From the NCBI GenBank assembly GCA_030446305.1, contig JASUSA010000003.1, positions 1 through 64,000 on the forward strand: a stretch of DNA of 64,000 bases, read 5' to 3'. Made by a program: the position numbers and the translations under genes. Every line of letters begins with the position of its first letter. Within the stretch, counting starts at the first letter, position 1. Below, piece after piece: positions 51,275 to 62,875 of this stretch. The notes under the pieces were generated by a model. That model had not been told where the DNA came from. It did no database searches and saw nothing but the letters and a program-made list of their open reading frames with translations. This DNA is from Clostridiales bacterium (GTDB taxonomy: Bacteria; Bacillota; Clostridia; Peptostreptococcales; Acidaminobacteraceae).

Positions 51275-52222
51275 TTACGCTTGTGTGATAATCGTTCCCG
51301 TAAGGCCTGCAATCCCGTCTTTTGCTTTGTCCAGCGATGTAATCAGCGATTTTCTGCCCGCCTTGGATGCTGCAAAGAGAACAGCTGCCTGAACTTTTGG
51401 CAGCATGCTGCCAGGTGTGAACATCCCCTCTTTGATATAAGCTGTCGCTTCATCAACCGTCATTGTATCCAACCATGTTTCATCAGGTGTATTGAAATTA
51501 ATCGCCACTTTTTCCACTGTCGTCAGAATAATGAGATAGTCTGCGTCCATCAGTTCTGCAATTTTCTCTGCAGAATAATCCTTGTCAATAACAGCAGGAA
51601 TACCAATGAGCGCATTGCCATCTCTGTAGACCGGAATACCCCCGCCGCCGACGGTGATGACCATATGTCCGCTGTCCATCAAGATTTTGACGGTGTCTTT
51701 TTCAGCAACATCTACAGGCTTTGGCGATGCGACAACACGGCGCCATCCTCTGCCGGCATCTTCGACCATTTGGTAATCATCGTGCTGTTTCATGAGCGCC
51801 TGCGCTTCCTCTTCAGCATAAAATGCCCCTATTGGCTTAATGGGCTTTAAAAAAGCCGGATCATCCTTGTCGACAATAACCTGCGTAATAACGGTTGCCA
51901 CCGGTACATTCAAATTTCGGTTGAGAATCTCTTCTCGAATGGCATTTTGCAAATGGTAGCCTATATACCCCTGACTCATGGCGCCACACTCCGGAAACGG
52001 CATTTCTGGTGTCCCGGCAGCGGCAGCATTTGCTGCGGACATGGCGAGATTAATCATCCCAACTTGTGGGCCATTGCCGTGTGCCAAAATAACCTGATGG
52101 CCTTCTTCAATGAGATCCACAATGGGTTTAGCCGTGTGTTTTACGAGTCTGATCTGTTCTTCCGGCGCCCTGCCAAGTGCATTGCCGCCGAGAGCAACCA
52201 CGATTTTTTCCTGCTTTTTCAT
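51275..52222 (-). CDS. arcC: Carbamate kinase
   Basis: KIVVALGGNALGR, AHGNGPQVG, VITVGGGGIPV, DKDYSAEKIAELMDADYLIILT. Confidence 0.96.
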   Translation of the reverse strand: MKKQEKIVVALGGNALGRAPEEQIRLVKHTAKPIVDLIEEGHQVILAHGNGPQVGMINLAMSAANAAAAGTPEMPFPECGAMSQGYIGYHLQNAIREEILNRNLNVPVATVITQVIVDKDDPAFLKPIKPIGAFYAEEEAQALMKQHDDYQMVEDAGRGWRRVVASPKPVDVAEKDTVKILMDSGHMVITVGGGGIPVYRDGNALIGIPAVIDKDYSAEKIAELMDADYLIILTTVEKVAINFNTPDETWLDTMTVDEATAYIKEGMFTPGSMLPKVQAAVLFAASKAGRKSLITSLDKAKDGIAGLTGTIITQA

Positions 52223-52311
52223 GTTTTTGCCCCCTTATGGTTTGTGAAAGTATACCGCCTTCAAGCTGCGGTCATGCTGTGCTGAGGCATGCCCTCAACC
52301 ACCATTGTCGA

Positions 52312-53304
52312 TTATAAATTGCCGATTGTCGCCACCATGATGGCTTTTATTGTATGCATGCGATTTTCTGCTTCATCAAATACGACCGAATGTTTGCTCC
52401 TGAAAACTTCATCTGTTACTTCCATCTCAGAAATGCCATGATTTTTAGCAATCTCCTGTCCAACCGTTGTTTCGAGATCATGGAATGCAGGCAGACAGTG
52501 CATGAAAATCACATCCGGATTATCGGTTGCATCCAGCATCGCCTTATTGACTTGATAGGGCATCAACTGCTCAATGCGCTCTGCAAAAAGGTGTTCTTCT
52601 CCCATTGATACCCACACATCTGTGTAGATAACGTCAGCGCCCTTAACGGCGTCAACAGATTCAGAAAGCTCAATTGTGCCGCCTGTTTCTGCAGCAACGT
52701 TCTTCATCTCTGCCACAAGTGCTTCTGAAGGCCATAATGCTTTTGGTGCAAGGGCAACAAAATGCATGCCCATTTTCGCGGCGCCAATCATCAGTGAATT
52801 GCCCATGTTGTTGCGTGCGTCGCCTGCATAAACAAATTTCACTTTATTCAGCGGTTTTGCTACATGTTCTTTAATCGTTAAAAAGTCAGCAAGAATTTGA
52901 GTTGGATGGTACATATCCGTGAGGCCGTTCCACACCGGCACGCCGGCATGTTTTGCCAAAGTATCAACGGTCTCCTGTTTGAAACCTCTAAACTCAATAC
53001 CGTCATAAAATCTGCCAAGCACCTTTGCCGTGTCTTCAACACTCTCTTTTTTACCCATTTGGCTATTGGTAAGAAATGTAACGCTGGCGCCTTCATCAAA
53101 AGCGGCAACTTCAAAAGCACAGCGTGTTCGCGTCGACGTTTTTTCAAAGATCAAACATATATTTTTACGTTCCAGCAGTGTGCCTTTTATACCTGCACGC
53201 TTTTTAGCCTTTAAATCCATGGCCAAATTTAGAAGATAATGCATTTCTTCACTTGTATAATCCTTGAGTGTCAACAAATGTCTGCCTTTCAAACTAACTG
53301 GCAT
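52312..53304 (-). CDS. arcB: Ornithine carbamoyltransferase (catabolic, arc operon)
   Basis: [41 protein letters not shown]. Confidence 0.95.
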
Positions 53305-53374
53305 AAGAATCCTCCTTATATATCATCTATTCAAGGGAATGTTCTCTCATCAATCTGAGATACGGCCCCGCCTA

Positions 53375-54604
53375 TTATAATTGATCACGATAGAGCGGCA
53401 TGGACATGCATCGCGGCCCGCCGCGGCCTCGTGAAAGTTCCGAAGACTGTATGACATGCAGTTTAATCCCCTCCGATTCGAGTAGGCGATTGGTTACATG
53501 ATTGCGTGCGTAAACGATTACTTCACCGGGTGCAATGGCCAGTGTATTTGAACCGTCATTCCATTGCTCCCTACCGGCGTCAATGCCCGGTTTGCCCCCG
53601 CATCGAATGAGTTTAACCTTATCGAGCTGTAAATACTTCATTAAAATTGCTTCAAGCTCCATATGCTCTTTTTCAATAATATATTCGCCCGGATCGCCAC
53701 GCTGTATAGAATAGACAGTTAACGGCCCTTCAATTTCCGGGTGTATGGTAAAGGTATCATAATCTACCATGGTAAATACCGTATCCAAATGCATAAAAGC
53801 TCTCATCTTCGGAATATCAAATGCTAAGATCGTCTCAAACGACTGACCTGCATTAAAGATGCGCTTGGCAATCAAGTCAATCGCAGCAGCATCTGTTCGC
53901 TGTGATACGCCAATGGCGATGACCTTTTCGGATAAAATAAGTTCATCACCGCCTTCAATAGCATAGGGATCTTCTCTATCATACCACAGCGGCACTTGAT
54001 GCTGTTTAACAGCCGGGTGATGTTTAAAAATATATTTTGCAAAGATCGTTTCGCGTCGCCTTGTAAGGGTTCGCATCTTATTTAATGAGACGCCATTCCC
54101 AATGACCGCATAAGGATCTCTGGTAAAATAAAGATTTGGCATTGGGTCAATCACAAAGGGATATTGCGTTTCAATGAGATCTGCCAAAGAATGCGTCAAG
54201 CCAAATTTTATTCCCTCTCGCCGTATCCCCGCCATCAATGCTTTAACCAGAGCATCTGGATCGTCAAATGCTTCATAATACGCCTTCACCATTGCAATTC
54301 TATACGGTGATACAATACCCGCTTCCGCAATAAACTCATCTATAAAGGTCCCTTTAACAGCTTCATCCCTTAATACATCCGCCATTAACGCTTCAAGATA
54401 AACGACTTCAACACCGCATGTTCTAAAGACTTCTGCAAAAGCATCGTGCTCTTCTTGTGCAACCCTTAAATATGGAATATCATCAAAAAGCAACCTATTC
54501 ATCAAATCCGGCGTCAAGTTTTCAATTTCCATGCCCGGCCGATGCAGCATCACTTTTTTTAATGCGCCAATTTCAGAGTACACTTGAAGTTTTCCATCAA
54601 ACAT
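53375..54604 (-). CDS. arcA: Arginine deiminase
   Basis: [64 protein letters not shown]. Confidence 0.97.
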
Positions 54605-56885: not shown

Positions 56886-57200
56886 ATGCTATTGGTTACG
56901 ACGCCGGAAATTACCGGCAAAAAAATCGTCGAGACCCTTGGTATTGCCAAAGGTTGTACCATTCGTGCAAAGCACATTGGGAAGGACATTACATCTATCT
57001 TTAGGCAGCTCGTCGGCGGTGAAATGAAAGAATACAGCGAGATGCTTCAAGAAGCAAGGCAAATTGCAACCAAAAATATGGTTGCTGAGGCAGAAGCACT
57101 CGGCGCCAATGCCATCGTCAATGTTCGATATGCATCGTCCAGCGTCATGCAGGGTGCTGCAGAGGTTCTCGCCTATGGCACAGCTGTCATCATTGAATAA
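56886..57200 (+). CDS. YbjQ family (DUF74) protein
   Basis: LLVTTPEITGKKIVETLGIAKGCTIRAKHIGKDITSIFRQLVGGEMKEYSEMLQEARQIATKNMVAEAEALGANAIVNVRY. Confidence 0.94.
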   Translation: MLLVTTPEITGKKIVETLGIAKGCTIRAKHIGKDITSIFRQLVGGEMKEYSEMLQEARQIATKNMVAEAEALGANAIVNVRYASSSVMQGAAEVLAYGTAVIIE

Positions 57201-57268: not shown

Positions 57269-57403
57269 GCGAGAATAATTGTCTTCACAAAAAAACATCT
57301 TTTTTTAAAAAAAGGTTCATCTAGCGGATGCACAATGTGATATACTGACTAGGGATGAAAAACGTCCAGCTTCCTAATTGGACATTTTATTTGGGAGGTA
57401 ATC

Positions 57404-60400
57404 ATGTCCGATCATATTGTTTCAAAAGCACTTGAAGTCAATCTTGAAAATACACGTGACCTGAGTATTCAGATACCGGAAGAACAGGTATGGCTGTTAT
57501 CGCTGTCTGAATCAAAATGGGGTACGCATAAGCGCACACAGGATTTTCTGCTGGAACTCAATCACAAATTTAGAAATAGCCAATACGTCATTGAATCGCT
57601 GCACAGCATCTGCCTGACGGAACTATGGTTCTACAATGGGCTCGAAGATGCCGAACGCGCCTTTGACGTTTTTTTGAGCATTTTTAAAACACTGATGACC
57701 GCACAGCTGGCAGAATCACAGCGCGATCTACTGATTAAAACGTTTATCAAATTTATGGATCGCCTGACGGCATTAAAAACCTATCCGGAGGGCATTATCC
57801 ATCGTTCACTCGACCTCTTAAATGAGGATTCGCAGCGTCACGAAGCGCTTTATGTCAAAAATACCGGTTATTTCAAAACTTATCTCGCCAGAATCGGCGC
57901 ATTGCCCGAACTTGAACCACAGCTCGTAGACATTACAAAACGTCTTTTAACCCGATGCTATACCGATTGGGAAACTGCTACAAACGTGCTGGCATGGTAT
58001 CAGGAAAAACAAACACATTTCCAAAGCCTTAAAGCAAGCGATCTCGATCCGATTGGCCATCAGTTCTACACGCATCTGCATGAAGAACTCACTGTCGCAA
58101 ATGACTGGAAAACCGTTTCAAAACTTATGTTTTATAATGATCTCTCCAATTATTATCGGAGCTTTACGGAACAAATCCGATCACATCTCGACAGTATTTA
58201 CTATTTATATTATTTGCTTCGGATAGAAGGCATGCTGCATTTGAGCGATCATCTTCTTTATGATGTCAATCGCAATCTTCGAAGCGTCTTTAAAGAACTT
58301 GGCGATGAAGACGTCACCGCTTTTATTGATGTCATCATGGCGGAATTTAAAACACTCGCCATTGATCACAGCGGCATTGTGCTGGATTGTATTCTCACGC
58401 TGGGCAAAGAAGTTATTGACGCTGGGCGCGAAGACCATATTACCTATTTTGTCTATCGTCTTATCGCCCTCGGATTCCAATATCCTGGCGAAATGGAACT
58501 CAATGAAGACTGGCAGATAAAAATCAACACCAGCCATGTCAAAAATATTCGCGTTTGGCTCGAATTGATTGAACATGCACCACTGGCAATGCGCAATTTG
58601 CTGGCTGCACTGATTGTCAATCTCAAGCTTGGCGGTATTTTTATCTCGGATACCGATCTCTTTCAACGCGATGTCACAAAAATGCTCAATGCAGACATTG
58701 CGCCAGTATACCGTGAAATCAAACAACTCGCACGGATATTTCCAGTCTACTTTAGAGATATTGGCGCTGAAGGCCGCCTTCGTGAAGTGACGACCGAGGT
58801 AGACGAAGCTTCCATGCGCAAGGATCGGCTGATACACTTTTTAAGGAAACAAGTGCATACCGAAAGTAACAACACGCATATTCAATTAACGCGAAAAATT
58901 TTAAGCTATTGGCATTCCGGTGACAAAACGATCTTAAAACCAGTGGTTCCAGAAGATGTTTATGAACACATTGGCGATGACGCAACATGGTTTGAAGGCG
59001 TTCACAGCATTTTAATTGCACTTTGCGGCGAATCGGCACAATCGCTTCCGGGTTGTCTCGACGCATGGGAACAGACGATTGAGAACGTACTATCCTTAGA
59101 TGCCGGCAACGACCGCGATCGCAGACGCGTTGCAGATCTCTTTGAAATTCACGCGCTTCTGTTAGAAAAGTACTCGCTGGAATCAGATGATATCGTCGCA
59201 TTCATGAAGGGCTATCACTTCTTTATCGGCGAAGAACTCGATACCTTGCAGCACTTGCTGGAATCCGATGCCCATAAAGAAGCCCTCAATAAAATCTATG
59301 ATTTTATGAGCCGGCTCAAGCACATCATCTTAAATCCTGAAGTCTCTGAAGCATTGGAGCAAATTTACTATAAACGCCATGTTGCCGTCGGCATTCCATC
59401 TATGTATGGCCAGTATATCGAAAGTAAATTTGACGCCTTGGGGCTGATGTATCGGCTTGAACGCACCGCTGCAAGGCTCATGATGCAAATCGTTGCAGGT
59501 GTCAATCTGGATTATGTCTCGGCACGGACGATTCGACATATTTATGAAGTTTTAATCGCCTTTCAAAGGGGACTCGAACTGGACGGCATTTCGAATCAAG
59601 GTTTTAACTCGCATCTCGACATGCTGAAATACGCCATGTCCTCACCGTCATTCTCTTTTGAACAGTACTTTAACCTTTTTGAATTTATGGCACGTGATAT
59701 CAATCGCATTATGGATGAGTACTTTATCAGTGTGTTTGACGGACCGCTTGAGGCCATTATTCCTCAGCTGCCATGCAACGAACCCGCATGCCTTGATGGC
59801 TCCATTGAAGCAAAGCAGCAGTTTTTTAAAATATCGGAAGGCTTTTTCAGAGAACATCTCTCTGCCGCGTTTCTCGTTCAGGATCTTGACCAGTTTATTA
59901 TGCGTATCCACGAAGCACTGCTGGCTGTAAAATCTGAATACGCGCCCGAAGCAATTGAGAGCATGATGACCTATGATCCAGATTTAGCTTACAGCGCGCT
60001 GAACTATGCGACACCGCCAATTGACAATCCTGTTTTTCTCGGTGCCAAAGCATACTTTTTAAAGAAACTCACCGATTACGGTTTTAACGTACCGCCAGGT
60101 TTCATTTTAACGACAGAAGTTTTCAGACATAAGGACATCCTTAGAAAGCATCCGCTGATGATGCAGGAACTCAACAACCATATTAAAGATGAAATCACGA
60201 GAATAGAAAATCAAACCGGAACGCGCTATGGCGATCCGGATAACCCGCTGTTCTTTTCTGTCCGTTCGGGATCGAGTCTGTCATTGCCCGGCGCTATGAA
60301 GACGTTCTTAAATGTCGGCATGAACGATGAAATCGCTGAGCATTTCAGCAAACAGCCCGGTATGGGATGGACTGCATGGGATAGTTACCGTCGGTTTTTA

Positions 60401-61537
60401 CAGAGTTGGGGCATGGCCTTTGGCATCAACCGCGATGAATTCGATCACGCTATGTTAACGCATAAAACACGCTATGGCGTTGAAACCAAAATACAATTTT
60501 CACCCAATGAGATGCGAAGCATTGCAATGGCCTATAAAAAAATTCTTTCAGATCACGGACTAGCCTTTGAAGAAGATCCGTTTAAGCAAATGAAACAGGC
60601 TATCGCCTCTGTGGTCGATTCATGGTTCTCCAAAAGTGCCGATGAGTACCGAAAACACATGCAAATCGCTGGCGGTTGGGGCACTGCCGTACTGGTTCAA
60701 AAAATGATTTTGGGCAACCGTTCCAATCGTTCGGGTACTGGGGTCGTCTTTACCAGCAGTCCATTTGTTAAAAATCCGTCTGCCGGTATTACGCTTTATG
60801 GCGATTTTGTCTTGTGCAGTCAAGGTGAAGACGTTGTTTCAGGTCTCGTGCATACACTGCCGATAACGGAAAAGCAGCGAAAGGCACATTATAAAGAAAG
60901 CCCTATGTCACTTGAATCAGGCTTTCCTGAAATATATGAACAAATAAAAAAAGACGCAGAACTGCTCATTGAAACTTACGGTTTTGCCCATCAGGACATT
61001 GAATTCACCTTTGAATCCGATGCTGTTGAAGACTTGTACATTTTGCAGATTAGGAATCAGAATTTAAAAAATCAAAAGACGCAAACGCGCTTTGAAAATC
61101 CGCCGCCGCCATCATCCCTGCTTGGCAAGGGGATTGGAATCAGTCCTGAAATACTGTCAGGTGTTCTCGCATTTGATTTGGAAGACATGACGCGGATCAG
61201 AGCTGAAAATCCGGATCAAAAAATTGTATTGGCACGTCCTGACACCGTACCGGATGATATACCACTGATCTTTCAATGTGACGGTCTCATTACAGCACGC
61301 GGCGGCGCCACATCACATGCTGCGGTTACTGCAGCCAGTCTCGGCAAAGTTTGCATTGTCGGCTGCAACGGCCTTTCAGTGGATGAAATCAAGAAAGCAT
61401 GCCGTTTTGACGGCAACGTGCTTCATGTCGGTGACGCAATCACATTAGATGGTGAAAAAGGGCAAATATTCCTAGGCGCTTATAAAACGGTGGAAAGCCC
61501 ATTTGAAATATTGAGGGAGGTCGAACATGAATCTTAG
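57404..61537 (+). CDS. PEP/pyruvate-binding (PPDK-like) protein: about 870-aa uncharacterised N-term, ATP-grasp domain, phospho-His domain; no recognisable C-terminal PEP-binding barrel
   Basis: LGAKAYFLKKLTDYGFNVPPGFILTTEVFR, PLFFSVRSGSSLSLPGAMKTFLNVGMND, WDSYRRFLQSWG, and C-terminal DGLITARGGATSHAAVTAASLGKVCIVGC. Confidence 0.88.
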   Translation: MSDHIVSKALEVNLENTRDLSIQIPEEQVWLLSLSESKWGTHKRTQDFLLELNHKFRNSQYVIESLHSICLTELWFYNGLEDAERAFDVFLSIFKTLMTAQLAESQRDLLIKTFIKFMDRLTALKTYPEGIIHRSLDLLNEDSQRHEALYVKNTGYFKTYLARIGALPELEPQLVDITKRLLTRCYTDWETATNVLAWYQEKQTHFQSLKASDLDPIGHQFYTHLHEELTVANDWKTVSKLMFYNDLSNYYRSFTEQIRSHLDSIYYLYYLLRIEGMLHLSDHLLYDVNRNLRSVFKELGDEDVTAFIDVIMAEFKTLAIDHSGIVLDCILTLGKEVIDAGREDHITYFVYRLIALGFQYPGEMELNEDWQIKINTSHVKNIRVWLELIEHAPLAMRNLLAALIVNLKLGGIFISDTDLFQRDVTKMLNADIAPVYREIKQLARIFPVYFRDIGAEGRLREVTTEVDEASMRKDRLIHFLRKQVHTESNNTHIQLTRKILSYWHSGDKTILKPVVPEDVYEHIGDDATWFEGVHSILIALCGESAQSLPGCLDAWEQTIENVLSLDAGNDRDRRRVADLFEIHALLLEKYSLESDDIVAFMKGYHFFIGEELDTLQHLLESDAHKEALNKIYDFMSRLKHIILNPEVSEALEQIYYKRHVAVGIPSMYGQYIESKFDALGLMYRLERTAARLMMQIVAGVNLDYVSARTIRHIYEVLIAFQRGLELDGISNQGFNSHLDMLKYAMSSPSFSFEQYFNLFEFMARDINRIMDEYFISVFDGPLEAIIPQLPCNEPACLDGSIEAKQQFFKISEGFFREHLSAAFLVQDLDQFIMRIHEALLAVKSEYAPEAIESMMTYDPDLAYSALNYATPPIDNPVFLGAKAYFLKKLTDYGFNVPPGFILTTEVFRHKDILRKHPLMMQELNNHIKDEITRIENQTGTRYGDPDNPLFFSVRSGSSLSLPGAMKTFLNVGMNDEIAEHFSKQPGMGWTAWDSYRRFLQSWGMAFGINRDEFDHAMLTHKTRYGVETKIQFSPNEMRSIAMAYKKILSDHGLAFEEDPFKQMKQAIASVVDSWFSKSADEYRKHMQIAGGWGTAVLVQKMILGNRSNRSGTGVVFTSSPFVKNPSAGITLYGDFVLCSQGEDVVSGLVHTLPITEKQRKAHYKESPMSLESGFPEIYEQIKKDAELLIETYGFAHQDIEFTFESDAVEDLYILQIRNQNLKNQKTQTRFENPPPPSSLLGKGIGISPEILSGVLAFDLEDMTRIRAENPDQKIVLARPDTVPDDIPLIFQCDGLITARGGATSHAAVTAASLGKVCIVGCNGLSVDEIKKACRFDGNVLHVGDAITLDGEKGQIFLGAYKTVESPFEILREVEHES

Positions 61538-62774
61538 AAACAAACGCATTTTGGGCATAAACGGCATTGGCCGAATTGGGAAACTCACACTATGGAATCA
61601 CTTAAATCAGCGACATTTTGACCGTATCGTCATTAACTCCGGTCGAACCATTGGCAAAAGCCTTGACGATGCCATTCACTATTTGACAACCGATTCCACT
61701 TATGGTACGCTGGAACGCTTCCGCTATGGTTATTCCGGCCAAAGTCTCAATATCAAAATTATTGATGCTGCTGAAAACCTAGTCGAAATCGACGGCATTG
61801 AAGTCAAGCTGCTGATGACTGCCCGGAATCCTCGTGATATTGAATGGGGCAAAGAAGGCGTTCGCCTCGTCGTCGACTGTACAGGCGTCTTTTTAGACCC
61901 GAGCCTCCCTGCAGACCATCCAAAGGGAAGCCTTCGCGGCCACATTGAAGCAGGTGCAGAAAAAGTGATCGTCAGTGCACCTTTTAAATTGGGAGCAGGC
62001 GTTCAAAAAAGACCTGAAGACAGCGGCCTCTTCGTTTACGGCGTCAACCATTTTCTCTACGATCCAATGAAACATCATATTTTATCAGCTGCAAGCTGTA
62101 CCACCACCGGTCTTGCTCATATGATGAAACCGCTGCTTGAAACAGAAGAAACATCGCGAATTGTCACGGCTTCCATGACGACTGTTCATGCGGCCACCAA
62201 TACGCAGAGTATTCTCGATTCTGCACCTTCTGCCAATGCAAAAGACCTTCGGAAAAATCGTTCAGCACTAAGCAATATTATTCCAAGCAGTACAGGCGCT
62301 GCGATTGCGCTGGAAGAAATATTGCCTGAAATCAAAAAAGTCGGTTTTATGGCAGACTCCATCCGCATTCCAACGCAGACCGTCTCCCTGATATCGCTGA
62401 ACCTCACGTTCCGAACAGAACTTAACAAACAGGGCCAGCCCGTGATTGACCGTGAGTTCATCAACGATATCTACATGCGTGCTGCTGAAGGTCCTCAAAA
62501 GGGACTGCTCTATTTCAGCACCAATCAAAACGTCTCGTCAGACCTCAAGGGTGAAATGGCGACAATCGTTATTGAAGGACGTGAAAACCACACGAGAACA
62601 GGCTTCTTATCACTGGATGCCGAAACGCTTAGCCGCTATCATGGTGAAATTCACAGCGATCTCAATTTGCCTGTAACACACGCCAAAATATTCGGCTGGT
62701 ATGACAATGAATTCGGCAGTTATGTCAATGCCCTTGGCAAGCTGACAAAATACGTCGACAAGAACTTGCTCTAA
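61527..62774 (+). CDS. Divergent glyceraldehyde-3-phosphate dehydrogenase-like protein
   Basis: GINGIGRIGKLTLW, LSAASCTTTGLAHMMKPLLE, TVHAATNTQSILDSAPS, NIIPSSTGAAIALEEILPE, WYDNEFGSYVNAL; overlaps the preceding stop by 11 bp. Confidence 0.88.
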   Translation: MNLRNKRILGINGIGRIGKLTLWNHLNQRHFDRIVINSGRTIGKSLDDAIHYLTTDSTYGTLERFRYGYSGQSLNIKIIDAAENLVEIDGIEVKLLMTARNPRDIEWGKEGVRLVVDCTGVFLDPSLPADHPKGSLRGHIEAGAEKVIVSAPFKLGAGVQKRPEDSGLFVYGVNHFLYDPMKHHILSAASCTTTGLAHMMKPLLETEETSRIVTASMTTVHAATNTQSILDSAPSANAKDLRKNRSALSNIIPSSTGAAIALEEILPEIKKVGFMADSIRIPTQTVSLISLNLTFRTELNKQGQPVIDREFINDIYMRAAEGPQKGLLYFSTNQNVSSDLKGEMATIVIEGRENHTRTGFLSLDAETLSRYHGEIHSDLNLPVTHAKIFGWYDNEFGSYVNALGKLTKYVDKNLL

Positions 62775-62819
62775 ACACGTTCATCGCGTATTGATCCCAA
62801 ATCGATACCATATAAAAGT

Positions 62820-62870
62820 GCCCTATGAACCAGATCCTGAAAAGTATCTGCGTTTATAGGGCTTATTTTT
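62820..62870 (+). terminator. Terminator of the PPDK-like/GAPDH-like operon
   Basis: gccctat-gaac-cagat-cctgaaaagt-atctg-cgttt-atagggc-ttattttt. Confidence 0.75.
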
Positions 62871-62875
62871 ATACC

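Follow-up and report, generated by a model that had tools for sequence, protein, structure and literature searches.

The window, as we call the 64,000-nt stretch of DNA analysed here (positions 1 to 64,000 of the forward strand of contig JASUSA010000003.1, assembly GCA_030446305.1), comes from a Clostridiales bacterium whose 3.4-Mb draft genome is very near that of Fusibacter paucivorans. It carries two overlapping genes, one encoding a 1377-aa relative of PPDK that is devoid of the phosphoenolpyruvate (PEP)/pyruvate barrel and the other a 415-aa GAPDH-like protein. Judging by conserved residues and a predicted fold, the pair is best read as a subfamily of phosphohistidine-swivel dikinases that combines a previously undescribed acceptor-module candidate with a dedicated GAPDH paralog; we assign a probability of about 0.5 to the proposal that a new acceptor is bound by the N-terminal helical module, this acceptor probably being a three-carbon metabolite linked to the GAPDH-like partner. 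No description of the pair was found in the openly searchable literature. In this superfamily, an ATP-grasp domain phosphorylates a swivel histidine, which moves to a second, substrate-specific site (PPDK; RPH, PMC4844700; HpeHI, PMC12167813), and HpeHI illustrates that such dikinases can be split into two proteins (PMC4844700, PMC12167813).

A PPDK-type catalytic half

Pfam identified two domains in the 1377-aa protein, PF01326 (PPDK_N, residues 918–1229) and PF00391 (PEP-utilisers, residues 1272–1353), with no further family above the cut-off. Using phmmer, residues 878–1365 aligned uninterrupted with residues 17–514 of PPDK 1KBL (~490 residues), and the PEP barrel of 1KBL was not found in the protein. 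The C-terminal barrel is missing because the protein stops right after the His domain; the open reading frame (ORF) ends 12 residues past it, in agreement with a previous annotation made from the letters alone (the sequence-only reading), which had seen no room for a barrel there.

Conservation across 37 aligned sequences supports the homology of these domains to those of PPDK (TIGR01828; 1KBL). Residues K882, R954, G963, R996, E1142, E1200 and Q1215 are invariant, the catalytic H1305 is present in 37/37 within the motif GG(M)TSHA, R1217 is kept in 36/37 and T1112 is either T or S. Expressed in PPDK numbering, the equivalents of K22, R92, G101, R135, E279, E323, Q335 and H455 are invariant, that of R337 is kept in all but one relative and that of T253 is T or S; that is, the ATP, phosphate and His residues that were checked are conserved. 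The phosphate pocket motif is of the PPDK type and not the PEP-synthase type, so a phosphate-dependent half-reaction from ATP to AMP and pyrophosphate (PPi) would be the natural expectation.

PPDK is the closest known family for the ATP-grasp and His domains, and the C-terminal half returned a probability of 100 % against PPDK as the HHalign positive control. The dikinase nevertheless scored 363 bits against the PPDK equivalog TIGR01828, below its cut-off of 843, and 24 bits against RPH (NF041857; cut-off 999). A tree built from the region spanning ATP-grasp and His placed the family on very long branches, apart from the canonical PPDKs encoded by related genomes (100/100 support).

A helical N-terminal module with two conserved blocks

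The sequence-only reading had recognised no family in the first 870 residues, and searches agreed: no Pfam family was found above cut-off in any of eight members, and a 31-sequence profile of residues 1–870 gave nothing convincing against PDB sequences. That reading had also asked whether a PEP barrel might be concealed there. HHalign comparison of residues 1–870 with a PPDK barrel profile returned a probability of ~0.1 %, and an AlphaFold2 (AF2) model of residues 1–866, built from 31 sequences, is helical throughout (mean predicted local distance difference test score, pLDDT, 85.6; predicted TM score, pTM, 0.78), the sole exception being one beta hairpin at residues 651–672; an earlier run from four sequences was poor (pLDDT 51). 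Since the predicted fold is helical bar this hairpin, a hidden TIM barrel in residues 1–870 is excluded as far as prediction can exclude it.

Foldseek matched the model to only generic helical solenoids in the PDB (karyopherins and HEAT-type, TM <0.2), and we rejected a known PDB fold for the module on these grounds. A viral origin was likewise rejected, as Foldseek found no significant structural match among viral models and a sequence search returned no viral match. RPH and HpeHI offer a precedent for the proposed logic, their ATP-grasp domain and swivel His being coupled to an acceptor domain that is not a barrel and is specific to another substrate; however, the RPH order is ATP-grasp, acceptor and His, whereas in the window protein ATP-grasp and His are contiguous and the acceptor candidate is N-terminal. 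Moreover, RPH has an acceptor domain of partly alpha/beta fold, the window module is predicted to be all-helical and the two are unrelated by HHalign (1.3 % probability for residues 1–870); the ATP-grasp domain of the window family is PPDK-like, not PEPS-like.

Two blocks, residues 361–500 and 641–780 (Table 1), show about the same conservation as the ATP-grasp and His domains: invariant columns make up 26.5 % of the ATP-grasp domain and 26 % of the His domain, as opposed to 3–14 % of the rest of the N-terminal module (37 sequences). Block 1 contains invariant D416, D418, R422, E456, R460, H478, R481, K482, H485, E487, N489, N490 and H492, while block 2 contains K657, R658, H659, an IPSMYG motif, E673, K675, R684, E686, D727 and N731. 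Overall, the invariant set of the module comprises dozens of polar residues and is rich in Asp, Glu, His, Arg, Lys and Asn. As this degree of conservation is about that of the catalytic domains and such polar invariants would be unusual for a mere scaffold, the blocks suggest a second active site or ligand site, i.e. an acceptor module. The sequence-only reading had left the choice between a new acceptor site and a regulatory module; the active-site-like conservation favours the former.

The GAPDH-like partner

Both GAPDH domains were confirmed in the 415-aa protein, and the catalytic C191 and H221 and the substrate-phosphate residue R280 are present in 38/38 alignment rows, matching the catalytic Cys, His and Arg of type I GAPDH. 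In contrast to type I GAPDH, it carries family-specific insertions, which contain invariant residues, and it scored 301 bits against the equivalog TIGR01534, below the cut-off of 367. The NAD-selecting Asp after the second beta strand is replaced by A, S or T, followed by an invariant Gly-Arg, suggesting that the cofactor is probably NADP; this NADP-type loop would be in keeping with gluconeogenic forms such as GapB. Members of the GAPDH-like clade are 59–99 % identical to each other, compared with 37–45 % to the canonical GAPDH that their own genomes encode.

A canonical GAPDH is additionally present in nearly every pair-bearing genome tested (a 68%-complete draft, G020, returned only one match), canonical PGK was found in 23/23 pair genomes tested, and canonical PPDK is encoded elsewhere in the genome of the window's host and likewise in the hosts checked. 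Because canonical GAPDH and PGK accompany the pair in this way, the GAPDH-like protein is not a housekeeping enzyme. The idea that the pair stands in for missing glycolytic enzymes was rejected on the same counts.

Distribution and pairing of the two genes

Searching with a profile of the N-terminal module, in genomes within one phylum, we detected the dikinase family in 6/399 genomes spread over the phylum (~1.5 %), 16/391 genomes of the class (~4 %), 8/198 genomes of the order (one being a remnant) and 18/98 genomes of another class. The architecture appears fixed, as intact matches clear of contig ends always had an open frame of ~1360–1430 aa. A scan of public named genomes returned only two full-length relatives, from F. 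paucivorans (L005; 96 % identical to the window protein across all 1377 residues) and a Clostridiales metagenome-assembled genome, probably because the peptide patterns used were derived from one sequence. No copies of the dikinase module were found on plasmids, and all plasmid GAPDH matches had <60 % identity.

The remnant (G019, contig C70, L038, 2031–2465, minus strand) consists of pieces of residues 26–76 and 283–296 in a 148-aa frame, indicating loss of the dikinase in a genus whose close relatives (G566 and G575) keep the pair.

In line with the conserved co-occurrence that the sequence-only reading had called for, the GAPDH-like gene directly follows the dikinase gene on the same strand in 36/39 informative genomes. 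Spacing in these 36 ranges from an 11-nt overlap to 474 nt apart, mostly <150 nt, and order and spacing are kept while the surrounding genes otherwise differ between genera. In two genomes, the partner lies on another contig (G706 and G895), and in two others the pair is cut by contig ends (G595 and G597). Among the 391 genomes of the class sample, 13 have both genes, three the dikinase alone and two the GAPDH-like gene alone (Fisher p ~9e-20, a value that overstates the co-occurrence because the sample includes related, and hence non-independent, genomes). In a mirror-tree comparison, the pairwise divergences of one protein track those of the other (r = 0.87; maximum of 2000 permutations, 0.23), which shows that the genes have travelled together, much of this r being expected from shared descent.

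Besides the partner, the only protein family with an obvious link that was repeatedly found next to the pair across taxonomic families is phosphoglycerate dehydrogenase (SerA), which adjoins it in four genera belonging to two families; a glycerate kinase and a GntP-type permease precede the pair in one further genome. These neighbours point to three-carbon acids, with limited weight for reasons given below. At L084 (2332–5210) and in its relatives (genera g370 and g371), genes for a DUF362 ferredoxin-like protein and for phosphoglycerate dehydrogenase come after the pair, and a glucosamine-6-phosphate deaminase-like gene lies upstream. At L051 (1–1809 and 3744–5258, G043), a separate ~600-aa protein with only the PPDK_N (ATP-grasp) domain is encoded near the pair, and an aldehyde dehydrogenase gene lies directly downstream of the GAPDH-like gene.

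Proposed mechanism and alternatives

Based on the conserved catalytic residues only, the ATP-grasp domain with its PPDK-kind orthophosphate pocket would convert ATP to AMP and PPi and place the beta-phosphate on His1305, or catalyse the reverse. The His domain would then swing to the helical core (residues 361–870), which may stand in for the PEP/pyruvate barrel, and the phosphoryl group would move from His1305 to an acceptor bound there. More tentatively still, the acceptor could be a three-carbon metabolite of lower glycolysis that is a product or substrate of the NADP-type GAPDH paralog. Our preferred candidate is 3-phosphoglycerate, whose carboxylate would be phosphorylated to 1,3-bisphosphoglycerate and then reduced with NADPH by the GAPDH-like protein; alternatively, in the reverse direction, ATP would be recovered from AMP and PPi. 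Other candidates are glycerate and a triose.

The pair would then be a PPi-linked, NADP-dependent counterpart of PGK/GAPDH, i.e. an ATP,phosphate:3-phosphoglycerate dikinase acting via phosphohistidine together with an NADPH-GAPDH. This specific form is a long shot, put forward because of the linkage to an NADP-type GAPDH, the SerA and glycerate kinase neighbours and the precedent of succinyl-CoA synthetase, in which ATP-grasp/phospho-His chemistry yields acyl phosphates.

Several observations weigh against an acceptor module linked to the partner. Three genomes of one genus (G758, G842 and G948; L130, L131 and L133), two of them complete chromosomes, encode the dikinase without the GAPDH-like gene, and a GAPDH-like gene with 59 % identity stands alone in G014, a complete genome that lacks the dikinase; thus, neither gene strictly requires the other. 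As the genus without the partner keeps a dikinase with all conserved blocks, the acceptor chemistry would be independent of the GAPDH-like protein. The hosts already own canonical GAPDH, PGK and, where checked, PPDK, and given these enzymes a second route from 3-phosphoglycerate to glyceraldehyde 3-phosphate would need to bring a gain in the balance of PPi or NADPH. Neighbours of the SerA and glycerate kinase kind are few in number and emerged from a scan of every neighbouring gene, which limits what they can say. Finally, the reach of the His domain to the conserved blocks is assumed, the AF2 model spanning residues 1–866 only. For the suggestion in the sequence-only reading that the acceptor is made or used by the GAPDH-like protein, the support comes down to linkage and congruent divergence, and it is weakened by the dikinase-only genus and by G014. 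A stand-alone 403-aa relative of the GAPDH-like protein was seen at L134 (8871–10082), in a complete genome without the dikinase.

Of the alternatives, one holds that the helical module is a regulatory or scaffold element and that the enzyme phosphorylates a protein, either the GAPDH-like partner or another carrier, as enzyme I of the phosphotransferase system does with HPr. Residues 1–360 resemble a HEAT-type protein-binding solenoid, the family-specific insertions of the GAPDH-like protein, with their invariant residues, could form a docking surface, and stable adjacency and congruent divergence fit a physical complex. A docking scaffold has no need, though, for blocks conserved like catalytic domains, and the module is kept in the three dikinase-only genomes although the partner is absent; we therefore regard protein phosphorylation as unlikely.

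It is equally unlikely, in our estimation, that the genes adjoin because of common regulation within central metabolism, with no joint reaction sequence. The few genomes that hold either gene alone would be explained in this way, but clear exceptions are limited to G014 and one genus, and the constancy of the pair while every other neighbour changes is harder to account for.

There is a slimmer chance that the acceptor is a polymer or larger carbohydrate gripped by the module, with an indirect linkage to GAPDH. The precedent is glucan water dikinase of plants, which acts on starch by the same ATP-grasp and phospho-His logic and, like the window protein, has a large N-terminal part before its dikinase machinery and a phospho-His intermediate; the very large module and the nagB-like genes in the vicinity of the pair, known from three genera of family f32, are compatible with this. 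The His and ATP-grasp domains of glucan water dikinase are, however, in the opposite order to those of the window protein, in which Pfam scans showed no carbohydrate-binding domain, and no glycogen or glycan gene recurs among the neighbours of the pair. Least probable by some way is that the protein is still a PEP/pyruvate enzyme, with pyruvate binding either to the helical module or to a barrel from a separate gene, as its nearest known relative is PPDK but neither profile comparison nor the predicted fold reveals a barrel, no gene for one was noticed next to the pair, the hosts checked have a canonical PPDK and the clade is set off from PPDK by a very long branch (100/100).

Gene layout and surroundings

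The ORF lengths, motifs and 11-bp overlap described in the sequence-only reading (57404–61537, 1377 aa; 61527–62774, 415 aa) were all confirmed, as was a single terminator after the pair, in the form of a strong hairpin (Table 1). Both ORFs are kept at 45–99 % identity across dozens of genomes, and so neither is a chance ORF. Strong Shine-Dalgarno sequences precede both genes, GGGAGGT before position 57404 and GAGGGAGGT before position 61527, the latter inside the end of the dikinase gene, and the two proteins are probably encoded on one shared transcript.

Just upstream of the pair (56886–57200) is a gene for a YbjQ-type putative metal-binding protein, which F. paucivorans also has. Further upstream, on the minus strand (51275–54604), lies an ordinary arginine deiminase pathway cluster encoding a carbamate kinase-like protein, ornithine carbamoyltransferase and arginine deiminase.

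Table 1. Coordinates of the dikinase/GAPDH-like pair and its features in the window
Feature	Position	Strand	Evidence
Shine-Dalgarno sequence of the dikinase gene (GGGAGGT)	57393..57399	+	Read directly
Barrel-less PPDK-like dikinase gene, 1377 aa	57404..61537	+	ORF; full-length relatives, 45–96 % identity
N-terminal module, residues 1–360 (helical, solenoid-like, less conserved)	57404..58483	+	AF2 pLDDT mostly >85; few invariant residues
N-terminal module, residues 361–870 (helical core and beta hairpin; proposed acceptor/second active-site module)	58484..60013	+	AF2, HHalign, conservation
Conserved block 1, residues 361–500	58484..58903	+	48/140 columns invariant (34 %), 37 sequences
Conserved block 2, residues 641–780	59324..59743	+	34/140 columns invariant (24 %), 37 sequences
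PPDK-type ATP-grasp domain, residues 878–1220	60035..61063	+	Pfam, phmmer, conservation
Phospho-histidine swivel domain, residues 1237–1365	61112..61498	+	Pfam, phmmer, conservation
Catalytic His1305 codon	61316–61318	+	Swivel domain alignment
Shine-Dalgarno sequence of the GAPDH-like gene, within the 3′ end of the dikinase gene	61513..61521	+	Sequence
GAPDH-like gene, 415 aa	61527..62774	+	GAPDH domains, NADP-type motif VIN(S/T/A)GR, C191/H221/R280, family-specific insertions
Rho-independent terminator hairpin, then T run	62811..62873	+	Stable hairpin; region folds at z = −4.0

Significance

Known swivel-His dikinases share a common ATP engine and differ in their acceptor domain, which serves pyruvate, rifampin, hydroxyphenylethanones or starch. 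To these the present family offers a very large acceptor candidate, predicted to be all-helical, without a Pfam family or a close solved structure, and tied to a second GAPDH in hosts that already own the standard enzymes. The pair suggests an undescribed phosphate-transfer reaction in three-carbon metabolism. Identification of the acceptor would name two genes carried by several percent of the genomes sampled from the window's class and would add an enzyme activity, possibly PPi-using, to anaerobic central metabolism; if the 3-phosphoglycerate dikinase proposal is true, anaerobes could carry out this step using AMP/PPi in place of ADP, in parallel with canonical PGK.

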